DNA from: Actinospica acidithermotolerans
GTDB taxonomy: Bacteria > Actinomycetota > Actinomycetes > Streptomycetales > Catenulisporaceae
DNA length: 47,454 bases
NCBI RefSeq assembly: GCF_018139625.1
Contig: NZ_JAGSOH010000051.1
Coordinates: 1 to 47,454 of the forward strand
Direction of reading: 5' to 3'
Part shown: piece after piece, positions 13,409-35,619 of the stretch
Numbering within the stretch: position 1 is the stretch's first letter
Layout: every line of letters begins with the position of its first letter
Translations under genes and position numbers: made by a program
The notes under the pieces: model-generated
Database searches by the model: none
Told to the model about the DNA's origin: nothing
Seen by the model: only the letters and a program-made list of their open reading frames with translations

Positions 13409-13663
13409 TTAGCGCATCTGTGCGATCGTGGGTGTGGCGGGCCGTGACCGGCCGCCGATCAGGCCTGCGGGTACGCCCCAGATCGCCATCTCCTCCACCG
13501 GTGCCGGGTCGCCGCCGGTCGCGGCCCGGCACCGGTGGAGGAGGACCGCGAGTGCGATGCCCACGATGTACGCGATCGCGCAGGCGTGGATGAGCCGCGG
13601 TCCCAGGTGGACCCCGTTCACGCCCGGCGACGGTATTTCGGTGTGCAACATATTCGGAAGCAT
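13409..13663 (-). pseudogene. Truncated 5' copy of lgt
   Basis: The frame starts MLPNMLHTEIPSPGVNGVHL and stays close to the intact Lgt at 30729-31616 for about 72 residues, up to PAGLIGGR. It then ends in unrelated residues at a stop (13409). Nucleotide similarity spans about 13448-13667 against 31398-31620, with scattered substitutions and one small indel, and breaks off on both sides. It lacks the catalytic GRIGN region and nearly all membrane helices, so it cannot be an active prolipoprotein diacylglyceryl transferase. Confidence 0.85.
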
Positions 13664-13667
13664 AGCC

Positions 13668-14050
13668 CTGCGCCCAGCCGCCGTGCGCCGAGCGTGCACA
13701 GGAGAGCGCCAAGGCCTCACGCGACACCCGCTCGGCCTCGCTAGCGCGATCCCATCGCAGGTGGGCGAGGGTGTCTCGCGTTAGCGCGAGGGCGGCTGCA
13801 CGTTCCGGACGAGCAGGGGCCGGCCGAGTGCCCATGCTTCCGACGAGCGGCTTTCCGCGCACACCGCGCCATCGAGCGGCGTGATCATGCGGATTCCCGA
13901 TAGTTTCTGTATCCAAATTATTGATGAGGGGCAGGTGCCAGTGCCGACCTCAGGGCACCTGCAGGAGGCGGCCGGGACGGACCTGTGACCTGAGCGCCGC
14001 AGCCGCCGGTGTGCCCGGCAGGGGCGCGCCGAAGCCGCACGGCGCAGTGC
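13668..14050. other. No recognisable gene; AT-rich patch
   Basis: Bases 13668-13900 hold a reverse frame with HLRWDRASEAERVSREAL that I cannot assign and that merges into the lgt fragment in another frame. At 13908-13925 lies an AT-rich patch containing ATCCAAATTATT, a 12-mer that recurs at 14587-14598 in the promoter region of the MarR/MFS pair. Confidence 0.4.
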
Positions 14051-30728: not shown

Positions 30729-31616
30729 CTAGCGATCACCGTGTGCCTTCCCGGGTTCCTGAGCGTCGAGGACCCCCCGATCCGCAGAAGGCTCGGTGGG
30801 ATCCGCGTCCTGATCGCGTCGTGGCCGCCATTGGTTGATCGCGAACCAGGCGAGGCCGGCGAGGGTGAGGGCGGTGGCGATGTAGAAGTTGAGGCGTAGC
30901 CCGAGGATGTGCTGGGAGTAGTCGATGCGGATGGTTTCTTCGAAGATGCGGTAGGCGGAGTATCCGGCGACGTAGAGCGGGAAGAGGCCGCCGGGGCGCA
31001 GTCTGCCGGTGCGTTCGAGCTGGATTAGCAGCAGGGCGAAGGCGAAGTCCCAGATCAGTTCGTACAGGAAGGAGGGCTGGAAGGTGGTGTACTGGGCGTA
31101 GCCGGGCGGCCGGTACTGCGGGGCGATCTCCAGGCCCCAGGGCAGCGTGGTGGGCTTGCCGAACAGTTCCTGGTTGAAGTAGTTGCCGATCCGGCCGATG
31201 CCCTGGGCCATGAGGATGCAGGGGGCGAGAGCGTCCATCATCAGCGGCACGCTCGCGCCGTGGCGGCGCAGCCGCCAGATGCACACGGGTACGGCGAGGG
31301 CCACGCCGCCCCAGATGCCCATGCCGCCGTCCCACATGGCGAGCACCCCGTACCAGACGTGGGGGATGGCGGCGGGGGTGGTGACATCGAAGTAGATCCG
31401 GCCGCCGATCAGGCCTGCGGGCACGCCCCAGATCGCCATCTCCTCCACCAGTGCCGGGTCGCCGCCGGTGGCGGCCCAGCGGCGCCGGCCGAGGAGGACC
31501 GCGAGTGCGATGCCCACGATGTACGCGATCGCGTAGGCGTGGATGAACAGCGGTCCGAGGTGGAACCCGTTCACACTCGGCGACGGTATTTCGGTGTGCA
31601 ACATATTCGGAAGCAT
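30729..31616 (-). CDS. lgt: Prolipoprotein diacylglyceryl transferase (complete copy)
   Basis: This 295-aa protein has about seven membrane helices. It starts MLPNMLHTEIPSPSVNGFHL with the Lgt-typical IPSPS..G.HLGP, then IYFDVTTP, WDGGMGIWGG and the signature GRIGNYFNQELFG (141-153, catalytic-region Arg142). It transfers diacylglycerol from phosphatidylglycerol to the lipobox Cys of exported prolipoproteins, such as the two binding lipoproteins in this window. It begins 9 bases after the class V aminotransferase stop and is the last gene of that operon. An alternative start at 31604 is possible; neither has a strong ribosome site. An operon setting like this suggests it may be a second, specialised Lgt. 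Confidence 0.95.
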   Translation of the reverse strand: MLPNMLHTEIPSPSVNGFHLGPLFIHAYAIAYIVGIALAVLLGRRRWAATGGDPALVEEMAIWGVPAGLIGGRIYFDVTTPAAIPHVWYGVLAMWDGGMGIWGGVALAVPVCIWRLRRHGASVPLMMDALAPCILMAQGIGRIGNYFNQELFGKPTTLPWGLEIAPQYRPPGYAQYTTFQPSFLYELIWDFAFALLLIQLERTGRLRPGGLFPLYVAGYSAYRIFEETIRIDYSQHILGLRLNFYIATALTLAGLAWFAINQWRPRRDQDADPTEPSADRGVLDAQEPGKAHGDR

Positions 31617-31625
31617 AGCCGTGCT

Positions 31626-33374
31626 TCAGCCGGTGCTCGTCTCGGAGGCCTCGAGGCACCGGGCGGGTAGCGGGAACCAGCGCAACGTCTCGAATTCGGC
31701 GGGTAGGCCGTTCGGCCCGTCTGCCGCGGTGTCCGGGAGGGCCTCGATCAGTCGGCGCGCGACGTCGAGTTGCTCGGGCAGGACGTGCTCGTCGGCGGTG
31801 GCCGGGGGCGAGACGGGCGAGGAGATGCCCTGCGGGGTGAAGCGCACGTCGGTGAGGTCGAGGCTAGGGGCGGACGCGGGCTCGCGATGCTGCCACAGGC
31901 CGGTGGCCGGGTCGAACCGGTAGGCCGGGAGCAGCCGGTGTCCGTGCCGGGCGAGCAGGTCGACGGCGTCGATCAGGTAGTCGCGGACGGTGTCGGTGAT
32001 GAAGTAGTTGAAGTTGATCCGGACCCAGCCGGGTTTGATGCCCTCGCAGCCGAGGCTGATCTCGTGCTCGAAGGCGTGCGAGTGTTCTGCGTCGATGGCC
32101 AGTAGCCGGTGGCCGTAGGGTCCGGCGCACGAGCAGCCGCCGCGGGCCTGGATGCCGAACAGGTCGCTGAGGACAGCGACGACGAAGTTGTGGTGCAGGA
32201 ACTTGCCCAGCTGCGGTGCGCGCAGCCGGAAGGAGACGATGGACAGTCGCCGGGCCCGCGGGTTGCCGAGGATCTCGATGCGCGGATTGGCGTTCCACCG
32301 CGTGATCGCCTCGCCCCACAGCTGCTCCTCGCGAGCCTGGATGAGATCGATGCCGACGGCTTGCTTGAGAGCGAAGACGAGGCCGGCGCGGATGGATTCG
32401 ACGATCGCCGGGGTGCCGCCCTCCTCGCGGGCGACCGGGTCGTCGAGGTAGCGGTGCCCGAGCGGGTCGACGAACAGCACCGTGCCTCCGCCGGGAACCG
32501 TCGGCACCCGGTTGCGCACGAGATCGCGGTGCACCACCAGCACACCGGGGGTCTGCGGTCCGCCAGGGAACTTGTGCGGGGACAGGAAGATCGCGTCCTT
32601 GTGGTCGCCGCGGCCTGGCGCCGATTCGCGCATCCGGATCGGCACGTACGGCCCGGCTGCGGCGTAGTCCCAGAACGACAGGGCGCCGTGCGCGTGCAGC
32701 AGCGCCGCGATGGCGTCGGCGTCGGTGACCACGCCGGTGACGTTGGAGGCGGCGGAGAAGCTGCCGATGCGCAGCGGACGGTCGGCGTAGTGCGTGAGCC
32801 GTTCGGCGAGGAAGGCCTGGTCGATGTGTCCGTCGCGGTCCTCGGGTACGACCACGACCTCGGCGATCGATTCGCGCCAGGGCAGTTCGTTCGAGTGGTG
32901 CTCGTAGGGGCCGACGAACACGACCGGGCGCTCGTCAGGCGGAATGCCCGCTTCCAGCTGGTAGCGGTCGGCGAGCGCGGCGGGCAGCCGCAGCTCGAGG
33001 ATCCCGACCAGCTTGTTGACCGCGCCGGTCGCCCCGGAACCGGTGAAGATCACCAGATGGTCACCGGTGCCGCCGACCGCCTCCCAGATGATCCGCCGCG
33101 ACTGCTCGCGCAGATGCGTCGTGGCGCGTCCGGTGCTCGAGCTCTCGGTGTGCGTGTTGGCGTAGCGCGGCAGGACCTGGTCCCGGATGAACTCCTCGAT
33201 GAAATCGAGCGAGCGGCCCGAGGCGGTGTAGTCGGCGTAGACCACGCGGCGCGGTCCCAACGGCCCGTCGAGCACCGCGCCGTCGCCAATCAGCCCGGAG
33301 CGTATCCGGTCGATCAGCGGCGAGTTCGGTGAACCGCAGGACATGTCGTCCACGATACGTCCGGTGTCACCCAC
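31626..33374 (-). CDS. Class V PLP-dependent aminotransferase (cysteine-desulfurase-like)
   Basis: This 582-aa protein has VVYADYTASGRSLDFIEEFI near the N-terminus (SufS/CsdA-like YLDYAAT region), TRATTHLRE, a PLP Asp236 (SFWDYAAAGPY) and the Schiff-base lysine K268 in LSPHKFPGGPQTPG. A late segment, RGGCSCAGPYGHR, has Cys414 and Cys416 where desulfurases have a catalytic Cys loop. It is about 150 residues longer than SufS, with an extra C-terminal region. Sulfur mobilisation from cysteine is likely but not proven. GTG 33374 or ATG 33344 may be the start. It lies 33 bases after the AhpD-like gene and 9 bases before lgt. Confidence 0.85.
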   Translation of the reverse strand: MGDTGRIVDDMSCGSPNSPLIDRIRSGLIGDGAVLDGPLGPRRVVYADYTASGRSLDFIEEFIRDQVLPRYANTHTESSSTGRATTHLREQSRRIIWEAVGGTGDHLVIFTGSGATGAVNKLVGILELRLPAALADRYQLEAGIPPDERPVVFVGPYEHHSNELPWRESIAEVVVVPEDRDGHIDQAFLAERLTHYADRPLRIGSFSAASNVTGVVTDADAIAALLHAHGALSFWDYAAAGPYVPIRMRESAPGRGDHKDAIFLSPHKFPGGPQTPGVLVVHRDLVRNRVPTVPGGGTVLFVDPLGHRYLDDPVAREEGGTPAIVESIRAGLVFALKQAVGIDLIQAREEQLWGEAITRWNANPRIEILGNPRARRLSIVSFRLRAPQLGKFLHHNFVVAVLSDLFGIQARGGCSCAGPYGHRLLAIDAEHSHAFEHEISLGCEGIKPGWVRINFNYFITDTVRDYLIDAVDLLARHGHRLLPAYRFDPATGLWQHREPASAPSLDLTDVRFTPQGISSPVSPPATADEHVLPEQLDVARRLIEALPDTAADGPNGLPAEFETLRWFPLPARCLEASETSTG

Positions 33375-33407
33375 GCGTAAGAAGCTTCACACGGAGCGCG
33401 CATGGCG

Positions 33408-33794
33408 TCAGTGATGGGCGTGTTCCGCTGCGCCTACTGGCACGACGCCGTCCGACTCGAGGAACTCGCGGACCGCGGCGAAGGCACGCGGACCGTAGAC
33501 GGTGCCGGGACCGCCGTTCATCAGGATCGCCACGCCGATGGCCTCGGCCGCCTCCTGCGCGGTGACGCCGTGCTGCACCGCGGCGTGCGCGTGTGCGGCG
33601 ATGCAGCCGTCGCACTCGCGGGTGACGGCGATCGCCAGCGCGATCAGCTCCTTCGTCTTCACGTCCACTGCGCCCTCGGCGAGCGCGGAGTCGTGCAGCT
33701 GCTTGTAGCCGGCGTAGACCTCCGGGATCGCACGACGCAGCTCGCGCGTGGGTTCGCGCAGCGCATCGCGCACGTCGGATCCATAGTTGCTCAT
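33408..33794 (-). CDS. AhpD-like / carboxymuconolactone decarboxylase-family protein
   Basis: This 128-aa all-helical protein has the AhpD redox motif CDGCIAAH (Cys61, Cys64, His68, CxxC-x3-H), preceded by KTKELIALAIAVTRE. Such proteins act as thiol-disulfide reductases in peroxide defence or as related CMD enzymes. It sits between the 81-aa Cys protein (77 bases upstream) and the class V aminotransferase (33 bases downstream) on the same strand. Confidence 0.9.
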   Translation of the reverse strand: MSNYGSDVRDALREPTRELRRAIPEVYAGYKQLHDSALAEGAVDVKTKELIALAIAVTRECDGCIAAHAHAAVQHGVTAQEAAEAIGVAILMNGGPGTVYGPRAFAAVREFLESDGVVPVGAAEHAHH

Positions 33795-33871
33795 GATTCG
33801 CTCCTTACAAGCGTGAACTGGTTAATCGATGATGAACGGTCATACGGGCCTTGTCCTGGGCCTTTCGGCCC

Positions 33872-34117
33872 TCACCGTGCCAGTCGGCGGTCACGTGGCG
33901 CGGCCGCGGCATCGTCCGCCGCGTCGGCGTGGGCGATCAGCAGCTCCGCGAGGCGGCGTGCTTCCAGAGGTGTGAAGCTGGCCCAGAGCTCGTCACGGTC
34001 TTGCCGGAGCCGTTGGGTCCTCAGCGATACGCGGGCCGCCGGATGGGCGAGGTGCTCCAGGCAGAGATCTCCGACCATGAACTCCCGGCCGCACACGGTG
34101 CGCACGATGTCCGTCAT
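33872..34117 (-). CDS. Small Cys-containing hypothetical protein, first gene of CsoR-operator operon
   Basis: This 81-aa protein begins MTDIVRTVCGREFMVGDLCL. Cys9, Cys19 and His22 could bind a metal or take part in thiol chemistry. The rest is helical (SFTPLEARRLAELLIAHADA). A very strong ribosome site (GGGAGGAGG) precedes ATG 34117. An 18-base CsoR-like palindrome lies 19 bases upstream of the start, so repression would block its promoter directly. I do not recognise a characterised family. Confidence 0.8.
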   Translation of the reverse strand: MTDIVRTVCGREFMVGDLCLEHLAHPAARVSLRTQRLRQDRDELWASFTPLEARRLAELLIAHADAADDAAAAPRDRRLAR

Positions 34118-34135
34118 CACGCGCCTCCTCCCATA

Positions 34136-34153
34136 GATACCCCGTGGGGTATC
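34136..34153. promoter_or_regulatory. CsoR/CstR-like operator 1
   Basis: GATACCCCGTGGGGTATC is a perfect 8-2-8 inverted repeat. The form ATACCCC-NN-GGGGTAT is that of actinobacterial CsoR-family (copper or persulfide sensor) operators. It lies just upstream of the leftward gene at 34117. Confidence 0.8.
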
Positions 34154-34222
34154 TCGGACAACGCCGCCCCGGCTTTGCGCATTCCCTCCGGGCTCGGGAA
34201 TAGACCGCCCGAGCCCGGCGAT

Positions 34223-34238
34223 ATACCCCATGGGGTAT
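34223..34238. promoter_or_regulatory. CsoR/CstR-like operator 2
   Basis: ATACCCCATGGGGTAT is a perfect 16-base palindrome sharing the ATACCCC/GGGGTAT half-sites with operator 1. It ends 23 bases before the thioredoxin ATG, mirroring operator 1 on the other side of the 144-base divergent promoter region. Confidence 0.82.
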
Positions 34239-34261
34239 CTGGTCGAGCGGAAGGAACTGTC

Positions 34262-34645
34262 ATGAGCGGCAGCGATGTGAAGCACACGGTGGAGTTGACG
34301 AAGGAGAACTTCGACGAGAAGGTCGGCGGCGACGGGATGGTACTGGTGGACTTCTGGGCGTCGTGGTGCGGGCCGTGCCGGATGTTCGCACCGATCTTCG
34401 AGCGCGCAGCGCGGCGCAACCCGGATCTCGTGTTCGGGAAGGTCGACACCGAGGCGCAGCCGGAGCTGGCCGGCGCGTTCGAGATCACCTCGATCCCGAC
34501 GCTGGTGATCGTGCGCGACGGGATCGTCGTCTACGCGCAGCCGGGTGCGCTGCCCGAGGCCGCGCTCGACGAGTTGATCGGCAAGGCGCGCGCCCTGGAC
34601 ATGGACGAAGTGCGCGGCAAGATCGCCGCGCAGCGCGAGGCGTAG
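34262..34645 (+). CDS. trx: Thioredoxin
   Basis: This 127-aa thioredoxin-fold protein has the active site WCGPC (35-39) within VLVDFWASWCGPC, the cis-Pro loop SIPT (Pro79) and a C-terminal helix. GAAGGA precedes ATG 34262. It reduces disulfides, or persulfides, in the cytoplasm. Immediately upstream is CsoR/CstR-like operator 2, suggesting induction by persulfide or copper stress. A PIG-L gene follows by 23 bases (ATG 34669). Confidence 0.95.
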   Translation: MSGSDVKHTVELTKENFDEKVGGDGMVLVDFWASWCGPCRMFAPIFERAARRNPDLVFGKVDTEAQPELAGAFEITSIPTLVIVRDGIVVYAQPGALPEAALDELIGKARALDMDEVRGKIAAQREA

Positions 34646-34776
34646 GCAGCCAAGGTGCGGGAGCCGTCATGTCCGAGGTCGATGCGGACGCACAACGCCG
34701 GCCACCGCGTCATCAGACGGTAGGCGATGCGGGCCGACGCCGAGGGTCGCTGCCGCGATAGGGTGCCGTCCTGGTC

Positions 34777-35424
34777 GTGGTGGCCCACCCCGACGACGAG
34801 ACCTTCGGCCTCGGCGCGGTCATCAGCCACCTGGTCGGGCAGGGCACGCGGGTCCACGTGCTCTGCTTCACCCATGGCGAGGCCTCGACCCTCGGCGAGG
34901 GCGGGGACCTCTCCACGGTGCGCGAGAAGGAACTGCGCGACGCGGCTCGCGCACTGGGCGTGCGATCGGTCACCATGCTGGAGTTCGCCGACGGGCACCT
35001 CGCCCAGGCGCCCGTCACCGACCCGGTAGTGGAGGTCACGCGCGAGGTGGCGGCGCATCGTCCCGATGCGCTGCTGGTCTTCGACGAGTCCGGAGTGACC
35101 GGGCACCTGGACCACCAGGCGGCGACCCGCGCCGCTGTGCTCGCGGACACGGGTCTGCCGATCCTGGCCTGGGGACTGCCGTCGGTCGTCGCCGATACGC
35201 TGCGCGGCGAGACCGGCGCGCCGTTCGCCGGGCGCTCGCCCGAGCAGTTCGACATCTGTGTGCGGGTACGGCGAACCATGCAACGCCGCGCCGCGCTCGC
35301 GCACGCGAGCCAGGTCTCGCCCACCGCGGTGTTCTGGCGACGCCTGCAACTACAGGGCGAGTGCGAGCATCTGCGGTGGCTAAAGGCCCCGGGCACGCAC
35401 GATCCGGTGAGCGCGCCGCGGTAG
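34777..35424 (+). CDS. PIG-L family deacetylase (5' end interrupted by an in-frame amber)
   Basis: The product has the LmbE/PIG-L zinc signature VVVAHPDDETFGLGAVISHL (AHPDDE) and the downstream metal/active-site segment GVTGHLDHQAATRAA (HxxxH-like HLDH). The family hydrolyses N-acetyl groups of GlcNAc conjugates, as in mycothiol synthesis or antibiotic pathways. An ATG at 34669 with GGGAG ahead starts the same frame but meets TAG at 34759-34761, directly before GAVLVVVAHPDDE. Either translation starts at GTG 34777/34780, which leaves little N-terminus and no clear ribosome site, or the gene carries a nonsense mutation. It is in line with thioredoxin. Confidence 0.75.
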   Translation: MVAHPDDETFGLGAVISHLVGQGTRVHVLCFTHGEASTLGEGGDLSTVREKELRDAARALGVRSVTMLEFADGHLAQAPVTDPVVEVTREVAAHRPDALLVFDESGVTGHLDHQAATRAAVLADTGLPILAWGLPSVVADTLRGETGAPFAGRSPEQFDICVRVRRTMQRRAALAHASQVSPTAVFWRRLQLQGECEHLRWLKAPGTHDPVSAPR

Positions 35425-35441: not shown

Positions 35442-35619
35442 TCAGGCCTTGCGGGATCCGAGCAGTCGTGCGAGCAGCCCGCCGCCGGCGCCGCGTTCGC
35501 GGGGGGCGTACTGGCACCGCTGGGAGCGCGGTACGCCCGCGAGGACCTGTTCGACGTGGTTGCCCGCAGCCGCGGTAGGTGGCCTTGCCGCAGTTCTTGC
35601 ACGTGGCGCGTTGGCACAT
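35442..35619 (-). pseudogene. Small zinc-ribbon protein, +1 frameshift
   Basis: From ATG 35619: MCQRATCKNCGKATYRGCG, then in the next frame NHVEQVLAGVPRSQRCQYAP to the stop at 35442. I know this combination (MC...C..CGK.TY.GCG.HVE..L..VP...RC.C) as a small actinobacterial zinc-ribbon family of about 60 residues. One surplus G in the TGCGGGC run around 35563 breaks the frame; removing it gives a normal protein. It is convergent with the PIG-L gene, 17 bases apart. Confidence 0.65.

Follow-up and report, generated by a model that had tools for sequence, protein, structure and literature searches.

Two mirrored CstR/ScCsoR-type operators between divergent gene arms of Actinospica acidithermotolerans probably mark a satellite cluster of a sulfane-sulfur regulon

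In Streptomyces coelicolor, the repressor ScCsoR (SCO0620) binds the sequence ATACCn6GGTAT and is released by sulfane sulfur, which modifies Cys37, both cysteines of the protein being stated to be indispensable (PMC7533328). The published circuit consists of four genes, csoR, pdo (persulfide dioxygenase, PDO), rhodanese and tauE; the adjoining sco0622-0623 were tested and found not to be controlled, and production of actinorhodin is described as promoted by sulfane sulfur (PMC7533328). CstR of Staphylococcus aureus and YrkD of Bacillus licheniformis belong to the same kind of CstR-like repressor sensing sulfane sulfur, and YrkD is associated with one 11-gene cluster that includes the thioredoxin-like YdfQ, PDO, rhodanese, TauE, SQR and NreBC (PMC9918477). 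The copper CsoR of Streptomyces lividans, from the same protein family, recognizes TAC-X9-GTA sites, two of three of which are upstream of copZA operons (PMC3902906). Here we describe a 47,454-nucleotide stretch of A. acidithermotolerans (the window; contig C369 of a 7.89-Mb genome in 422 contigs), in which two operators of the ScCsoR class are found between two divergent gene arms. The left arm encodes an 81-aa protein (p81), an AhpD-like protein, a class V pyridoxal phosphate (PLP) enzyme and Lgt, and the right arm encodes a thioredoxin and a PIG-L deacetylase.

Both operators are located inside the intergenic region between the divergent p81 and thioredoxin genes. The pattern ATACCCC-N0-6-GGGGTAT matched the window twice, whereas no match was obtained in 100 shuffles: operator 1 (ATACCCCGTGGGGTAT, 34137..34152) precedes p81 and the left arm, and operator 2 (ATACCCCATGGGGTAT, 34223..34238) precedes the thioredoxin gene and the right arm, neither site being assigned to a strand. 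An earlier note on this DNA, made from the letters alone, had described two perfect palindromes with ATACCCC/GGGGTAT half-sites, each about 20 bases from a start codon, in a 144-base divergent region. The distances agreed with measurement (144 bases, with gaps of 19 to p81 and 23 to thioredoxin) and both sites are real, but only operator 2 is a perfect palindrome (16/16), operator 1 being symmetric at 16 of 18 positions and broken at its central GT. Both are of the gap-6 ATACC/GGTAT type, that is, the ATACC-n6-GGTAT 16-mer of the CstR/ScCsoR regulon placed directly upstream of genes, and for operator 2 the same type precedes thioredoxin genes in relatives. Across the whole genome the exact 16-mer occurred seven times (two in the window, three on contig C59 and two at the end of contig C233), with none in the reversed control and 0.02 expected from base composition alone. 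The looser pattern ATACC-n6-GGTAT gave 12 matches against 2 in the reversed control; because 10 gap-6 matches were seen where about 1.5 would be expected from base composition, one or two of the loose matches may be chance.

We consider it very likely that the window operators are CstR/ScCsoR-type persulfide-sensor sites, that the sensor is the one encoded on C59, and that it controls both arms along with the genes of C59 and C233. The window is accordingly read by us as a second, dispersed (satellite) cluster of a sulfane-sulfur regulon wider than the published four-gene circuit. It resembles the ScCsoR circuit in operator class, in a two-Cys CsoR-like sensor and in the control of rhodanese and PDO genes, the genome's own C59 holding such a locus; it differs in being a satellite without its own regulator and in that thioredoxin, AhpD-like protein, class V enzyme, PIG-L, p81 and a Cys-rich mini-protein described below are not among the four genes of that circuit. 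The YrkD cluster likewise has a thioredoxin-like gene, which gives thioredoxin a precedent in regulons of this kind, but the cluster described here is dispersed and carries other enzymes. Among the literature matches listed (titles and beginnings of abstracts, with subscription journals largely outside), AhpD, class V, PIG-L, p81 and the mini-protein were unreported in a CstR regulon.

A genome search for the palindrome and for csoR/cstR genes, as proposed in the earlier note, found both, and the refuting case named there, a genome devoid of CsoR-family genes, does not apply: beside the seven 16-mers, three PF02583 matches over cut-off were obtained, namely one copper-type protein, one intact CstR-like protein and one CstR-like protein with an internal stop. 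On C59 (L008) the order is MMPL-like gene start, site, site, CstR-like–DUF302–methyltransferase, site, rhodanese–PDO-like. The last of these genes encodes a metallo-beta-lactamase fold with two rhodanese stretches and resembles the PDO-rhodanese protein of the published circuit, and the site at position 2008 places the same operator at rhodanese and PDO genes; no TauE gene was seen at the C59 cst locus. On C233 the start of this MMPL-like gene occurs a second time, with two sites, and beside it a stretch at the contig end (L009 7875-8480) looks like a cstR remnant that lacks its middle part. Contig C7 (L010) carries a cstR–DUF302 pair with a one-mismatch site, its cstR being interrupted by a TAG at about 7667, before the second Cys. 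The loose gap-6 pattern adds sites at C329:60796 and at C221:17063, the latter 36 bases ahead of the first ATG of a second thioredoxin gene whose product is about 80% identical to that of the window; a third close thioredoxin, on C404 (64%), has no site. Separately, a thioredoxin remnant similar to the window gene was noticed close to the C59 cst genes (L008 5160-5393, minus strand).

The intact C59 sensor (PF02583) has Cys35 and Cys64, with Gly where the copper-type CsoR encoded on contig C398 has His, and a Cys pair spaced 29 apart and Gly in place of the His were present in 68 of the 73 rows compared. The two-Cys/no-His rule used here is drawn from this row comparison, from an alignment with Protein Data Bank (PDB) entry 7mq1 and from PMC7533328. 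The formaldehyde sensor FrmR was also considered for the C59 protein and rejected (29.9 bits, cut-off 133). The C398 protein, in turn, is Cys-His-Cys, is encoded beside an HMA-domain gene, scores 160.6 bits against the NCBIfam RicR model (cut-off 175) and has a 17-mer site, ATACCCCTGTAGGGTAT, of the form TAC-X9-GTA with a gap of 7.

Operator spacing was then compared over 59 CstR loci, which are the best-scoring places outside the genome itself, drawn from across the class rather than at random; because the best-scoring places were taken, the set leans towards C59-like sensors. The loci are up to 16.5 kb long, with 16 of 59 under 15 kb, and since their lengths differ, the absence of a neighbour is weaker evidence for the short ones. 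When ATACC-GGTAT gaps of 3 to 10 were tried, 70 gap-6 sites were found against 1 with gap 5 and 1 with gap 7, and none in the reversed control; 47 of the 59 loci had at least one gap-6 site. The assignment of the window sites to a CsoR-family operator, made in the earlier note, is supported.

As to the signal, the earlier note had left Cu(I) and persulfides side by side. Were copper the answer, the sites would be bound by the copper sensor CsoR or by a different metal sensor from this family, with the genes making up a metal/thiol stress response. The protein family is the same and the half-sites are similar, the S. lividans CsoR sites sharing the TAC/GTA and G-tract make-up of those in the window (PMC3902906). 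The genome has three PF02583 genes, and some operators of relatives have metal-transport genes in their vicinity: in genome G002 the gene for an FTR1 iron permease (L048 1-893, minus strand) is divergent from the CstR-type site, and in G003 and G008 P-type ATPase genes lie at a distance of 2-3 kb from sites. Among PDB sequences the C59 sensor is closest to 7mq1 (47 bits), which is deposited as the copper-sensing repressor csoR, although the stretch of 7mq1 aligned to the sensor has no His either, and we take the entry to be a CstR. Against these points, the His-bearing C398 CsoR has a TAC-X9-GTA 17-mer as in S. lividans, whereas the window sites are TAC-X8-GTA with a gap of 6, and the copper-type 17-mer is thus not what they present. 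The metal-transport neighbours in relatives leave the spacing and sensor evidence as it is. Because the genome's own copper-type CsoR gene has a 17-mer site, copper control of the window sites is unlikely; because their gap is 6, as in the CstR loci and for ScCsoR, and not 7 as at C398, they fit a persulfide sensor better than a copper sensor. No copper efflux gene is present in the window arms, and none (copZ/copA-type genes included) was recognized directly at the other 16-mer sites of the genome and the family loci examined by reading. The copper alternative is accordingly held to be quite unlikely, and gap 6 versus gap 7 offers a simple rule by which, in this genome, CsoR-family sites of the persulfide type can be told from those of the copper type. 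One further site with the copper-type spacing, a 17-mer at G000:C74:210-226 (L238), was noted 40 bases ahead of an ArsP_1-family permease gene (PF03773).

Related loci were examined for the gene content of the two arms. Within the family, 18 exact sites were found in 7 of 14 genomes (none in the control), and each adjoins a CstR, MMPL, DUF302, rhodanese/PDO, thioredoxin, p81-AhpD or mini-protein gene. The family member G001 has a site followed by a p81 homologue and an AhpD gene (78%), which matches the left arm minus class V and lgt, and G003, of the same genus, has a site followed by thioredoxin (69%) and cstR, which matches the right arm plus a sensor gene. Thioredoxin genes were present in 12 of the 59 CstR loci, with a site at most 350 bases upstream in 8 of the 12 and none in the reversed control; thioredoxin is the most general member of the set. 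AhpD, PIG-L, class V and p81 are lineage-specific members.

Among 391 genomes of the order, 11 (its own included) have relatives of the class V enzyme, and 7 of the 10 neighbourhoods examined outside the window carry cst markers or a site. Three of these, from Streptomyces (L055, L056 and L058), have class V, thioredoxin, rhodanese, CstR, TauE and PDO as neighbours, with p81 some 3-4 kb off. A wider contig scan for class V gave 80 loci, for which all figures refer to the matches listed; L073 and L076, duplicates of G020/G363, were omitted from the class V tree and neighbour counts, and G265, a partial match with stops, was omitted from the neighbourhood comparison. Among these matches, Amycolatopsis alkalitolerans (L142) and Amycolatopsis sp. 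2-2 (L070) each have AhpD, PIG-L, class V, CstR and thioredoxin in a single locus. A. acididurans (L064) has four of these five, Gordonia amicalis (L066) has class V–AhpD–PIG-L, and Kutzneria, Lentzea and Micromonospora have parts of the set. A tree built from 90 class V proteins had 28 rows in the clade of the window, 16 of which (window included) were cst-linked, as opposed to 2 of 62 outside, and the cst-link label changed 7 times against a shuffle mean of 16.6, with 0 of 500 shuffles as low. The sulfane-sulfur theme proposed from gene content is supported, thioredoxin, AhpD, class V, p81 and, in relatives, PIG-L repeatedly accompanying CstR genes or operators. Taken as a whole, the interpretation in the earlier note stands in part: AhpD, class V and thioredoxin occur together in two Amycolatopsis, but lgt was found in 0 of the 59 CstR loci.

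Several observations, besides the metal-transport genes and the 7mq1 match given above, weigh against assigning both arms to a persulfide regulon. The sensor is encoded in trans, on a contig other than that of the window, and 12 of the 59 CstR loci are without a strict site. AhpD occurred in 3, and PIG-L, class V and p81 in 1 each, of these 59 loci. Few loci have a site at most 350 bases from class V itself (3 of 10, 2 of 12 and 1 of 66, the last count being for the distant group), and control of AhpD, class V and lgt by operator 1 would need read-through from p81. In the stretches around four close class V relatives (Phytohabitans L069, Nonomuraea L072, Jiangella L074 and Lentzea L075) no cst genes were present. 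The nearest class V relative of all (G001, 78%, L021 644-2900) is divergent from a fur-like gene, followed by katG, and has no operator in the 12 kb read around it; here and below, the labels fur, katG, gltB, transposase, ESX and KdpD-like were read off translations, without Pfam assignment. In the right arm, finally, the window copies of the PIG-L and mini-protein genes may be defective. As a separate matter, the fur-like and katG neighbours in L021 hint at a peroxide linkage of class V in G001.

On the persulfide reading of the window, a tetramer of the C59 CstR would occupy both sites, immediately before the two start codons and probably overlapping the promoters, and would shut both arms. 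Accumulating persulfides or polysulfides would modify the two cysteines of the sensor, so that the repressor would leave and both arms would be transcribed together with the rhodanese, PDO and MMPL genes of C59 and C233. We infer this repression and release from the operator, its position and the sensor signature. Thioredoxin would then reduce sulfane sulfur to H2S, an activity described for the thioredoxins of S. coelicolor, for which AdpA is the reported activator and other regulators are allowed for (PMC9952706). Possible substrates of the AhpD-like CxxC protein, of the desulfurase-like class V enzyme and of the PIG-L amidase in its intact form are low-molecular persulfides or protein thiols; p81 might be a small partner, and lgt would ride along in this strain. 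What is proposed here for AhpD, PIG-L, p81 and the mini-protein is guesswork based on fold and neighbouring genes. More broadly, and tentatively, actinomycetes could keep a reductive or salvage persulfide branch beside the oxidative one (PDO, rhodanese and TauE), made up of thioredoxin, the AhpD-like reductase, class V, PIG-L (possibly on mycothiol persulfides), p81 and the mini-protein (which may carry or sense sulfane sulfur) under one 16-mer operator. If the assignment of the window is true, the persulfide regulon of four tested S. coelicolor genes extends to a wider set recurring in several actinomycete families, and p81 and the mini-protein, two small unannotated protein families, become candidates for sulfane-sulfur chemistry.

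The gene identities put forward in the earlier note were confirmed by matches to PF01790 (lgt), PF00266 (class V), PF02627 (AhpD-like), PF00085 (thioredoxin) and PF02585 (PIG-L), the 81-aa protein being without a family. This protein, p81 (33872..34117, minus strand; no Pfam or NCBIfam match), has one conserved Cys in a CGR motif, and a homologue lies directly after an operator in G001 (L047) and about 140 bases past a site in L055, L056 and L058. AlphaFold2 run on the single p81 sequence gave a mean pLDDT of 75.8 and a pTM of 0.38, with a spread of 55.5 to 75.8 over five models, and the structure was set aside. The next gene, for the AhpD-like CMD protein (33408..33794, minus strand; PF02627 and TIGR00778), has an ECDGC motif, and its 78% homologue stands behind the operator and p81 of G001 L047. 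It is followed by the gene for the cysteine-desulfurase-like class V enzyme (31626..33344, minus strand), with an alternative GTG start at 33374; the leftward gaps of 77, 33 and 9 bases were measured as proposed, the 33 requiring this GTG start (63 from the ATG). Cys406 of the class V protein aligns with the catalytic Cys of SufS (GCSCAGP versus HHCAQP) and its PLP lysine motif is SPHK, so that lysine motif and catalytic-Cys position are alike in the two. The 572-aa protein differs from SufS-type cysteine desulfurases in a C-terminal extension and in scoring 107.3 bits against the SufS model TIGR01979, far below its cut-off of 475.1.

On the right, the thioredoxin gene (34262..34645, plus strand; WCGPC, PF00085, TIGR01068 over cut-off) is followed by that for the PIG-L/LmbE deacetylase, read from a GTG (34777..35424, plus strand; PF02585), and by a frameshifted copy of the Cys-rich mini-protein gene on the other strand (35442..35619, minus), a family linked to CstR operators. 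The two rightward domains were thus found as the earlier note had them, but a TAG (34759-34761) interrupts the PIG-L frame two codons ahead of its VLVVVAHPDD motif, which leaves GTG 34777 as the first common start codon. Homologues of PIG-L stand beside class V genes in Amycolatopsis and Gordonia. Four relatives have 59 to 151 open codons ahead of the motif; in a fifth (L189) a stop stands 11 codons ahead, so a short N terminus may be tolerated. The mini-protein family is of about 60 aa with the pattern MCxxxxCxxCxKxTxxGCGxHVxxVxxxVPxxxRC, and its C59 copy matched no Pfam or NCBIfam family. Intact copies are found on C59 (L008 4695) and C7 (L010 7072, minus strand), 2.7 and 0.8 kb from a site, and the gene lies 50-120 bases from a site (16-mer ends free) in L045 (G001), L064, L068, L070, L179, L202, L219 and L223. 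It was present in 13 of the 59 CstR loci, 3 of 10 family operator loci and 3 of 14 close class V loci, and in 0 of 10 class V loci of the order and 0 of 66 distant ones. The in-frame stop ahead of PIG-L and the frameshifted mini-protein, taken with the stop inside the C7 cstR, the deleted cstR on C233 and the thioredoxin remnant on C59, could also be read as a dying right arm, the window then being a decaying second copy of a cst locus in which only thioredoxin still matters. This concerns two genes and is compatible with persulfide control of the window; with the p81, AhpD, class V and thioredoxin frames open and conserved in sequence, both operators intact and the L189 stop also close to its PIG-L motif, it appears highly improbable.

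The lgt paralogue (30729..31616, minus strand; PF01790) starts 9 bases after class V and scores 142.9 bits against TIGR00544 (cut-off 118.9), placing it in that family, and 215.8 against the longer PRK13108 model, short of its cut-off of 636. It had been proposed that sulfane-sulfur stress is coupled here to lipoprotein Cys diacylation, lgt being a functional member of the regulon, and the same-strand position directly after class V favours this, as does a second lgt between DUF302 and PDO in Streptomyces aureus (L073), the one such case in the 80 class V loci among the matches listed. The Streptomyces aureus gene is, however, nearer to the lgt copy on contig C367 and has no site directly ahead. 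The genome has two other full lgt genes over cut-off, on C367 (preceding a gltB-like gene) and C377, and one fragment; the C377 copy is 83% identical to that of the window and lies near transposon-like and ESX-like genes, with no cst genes nearby, and none were present within the 19.5 kb read around the next relative (66%, G376). The fragment is a truncated 5' duplicate in the window itself (13409-13720, minus strand), of which 13448-13671 is 92.5% identical to 31398-31624; this match stops at the class V/lgt junction, which is consistent with rearrangement, and the duplicate shares lgt but not class V. Together with the absence of lgt from the 59 CstR loci, these comparisons speak against the proposed coupling, which is very unlikely; we treat lgt as a passenger and not as a conserved regulon member, although it may be co-transcribed with the left arm in this strain.

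Further sites in the genome were noted at C53:105 and C99:42209. A one-mismatch 16-mer at G000:C22:89476-89491 (L012 7477) coincides in part with the stop codon of one gene and is 46 bases ahead of a KdpD/DUF4118-like gene.

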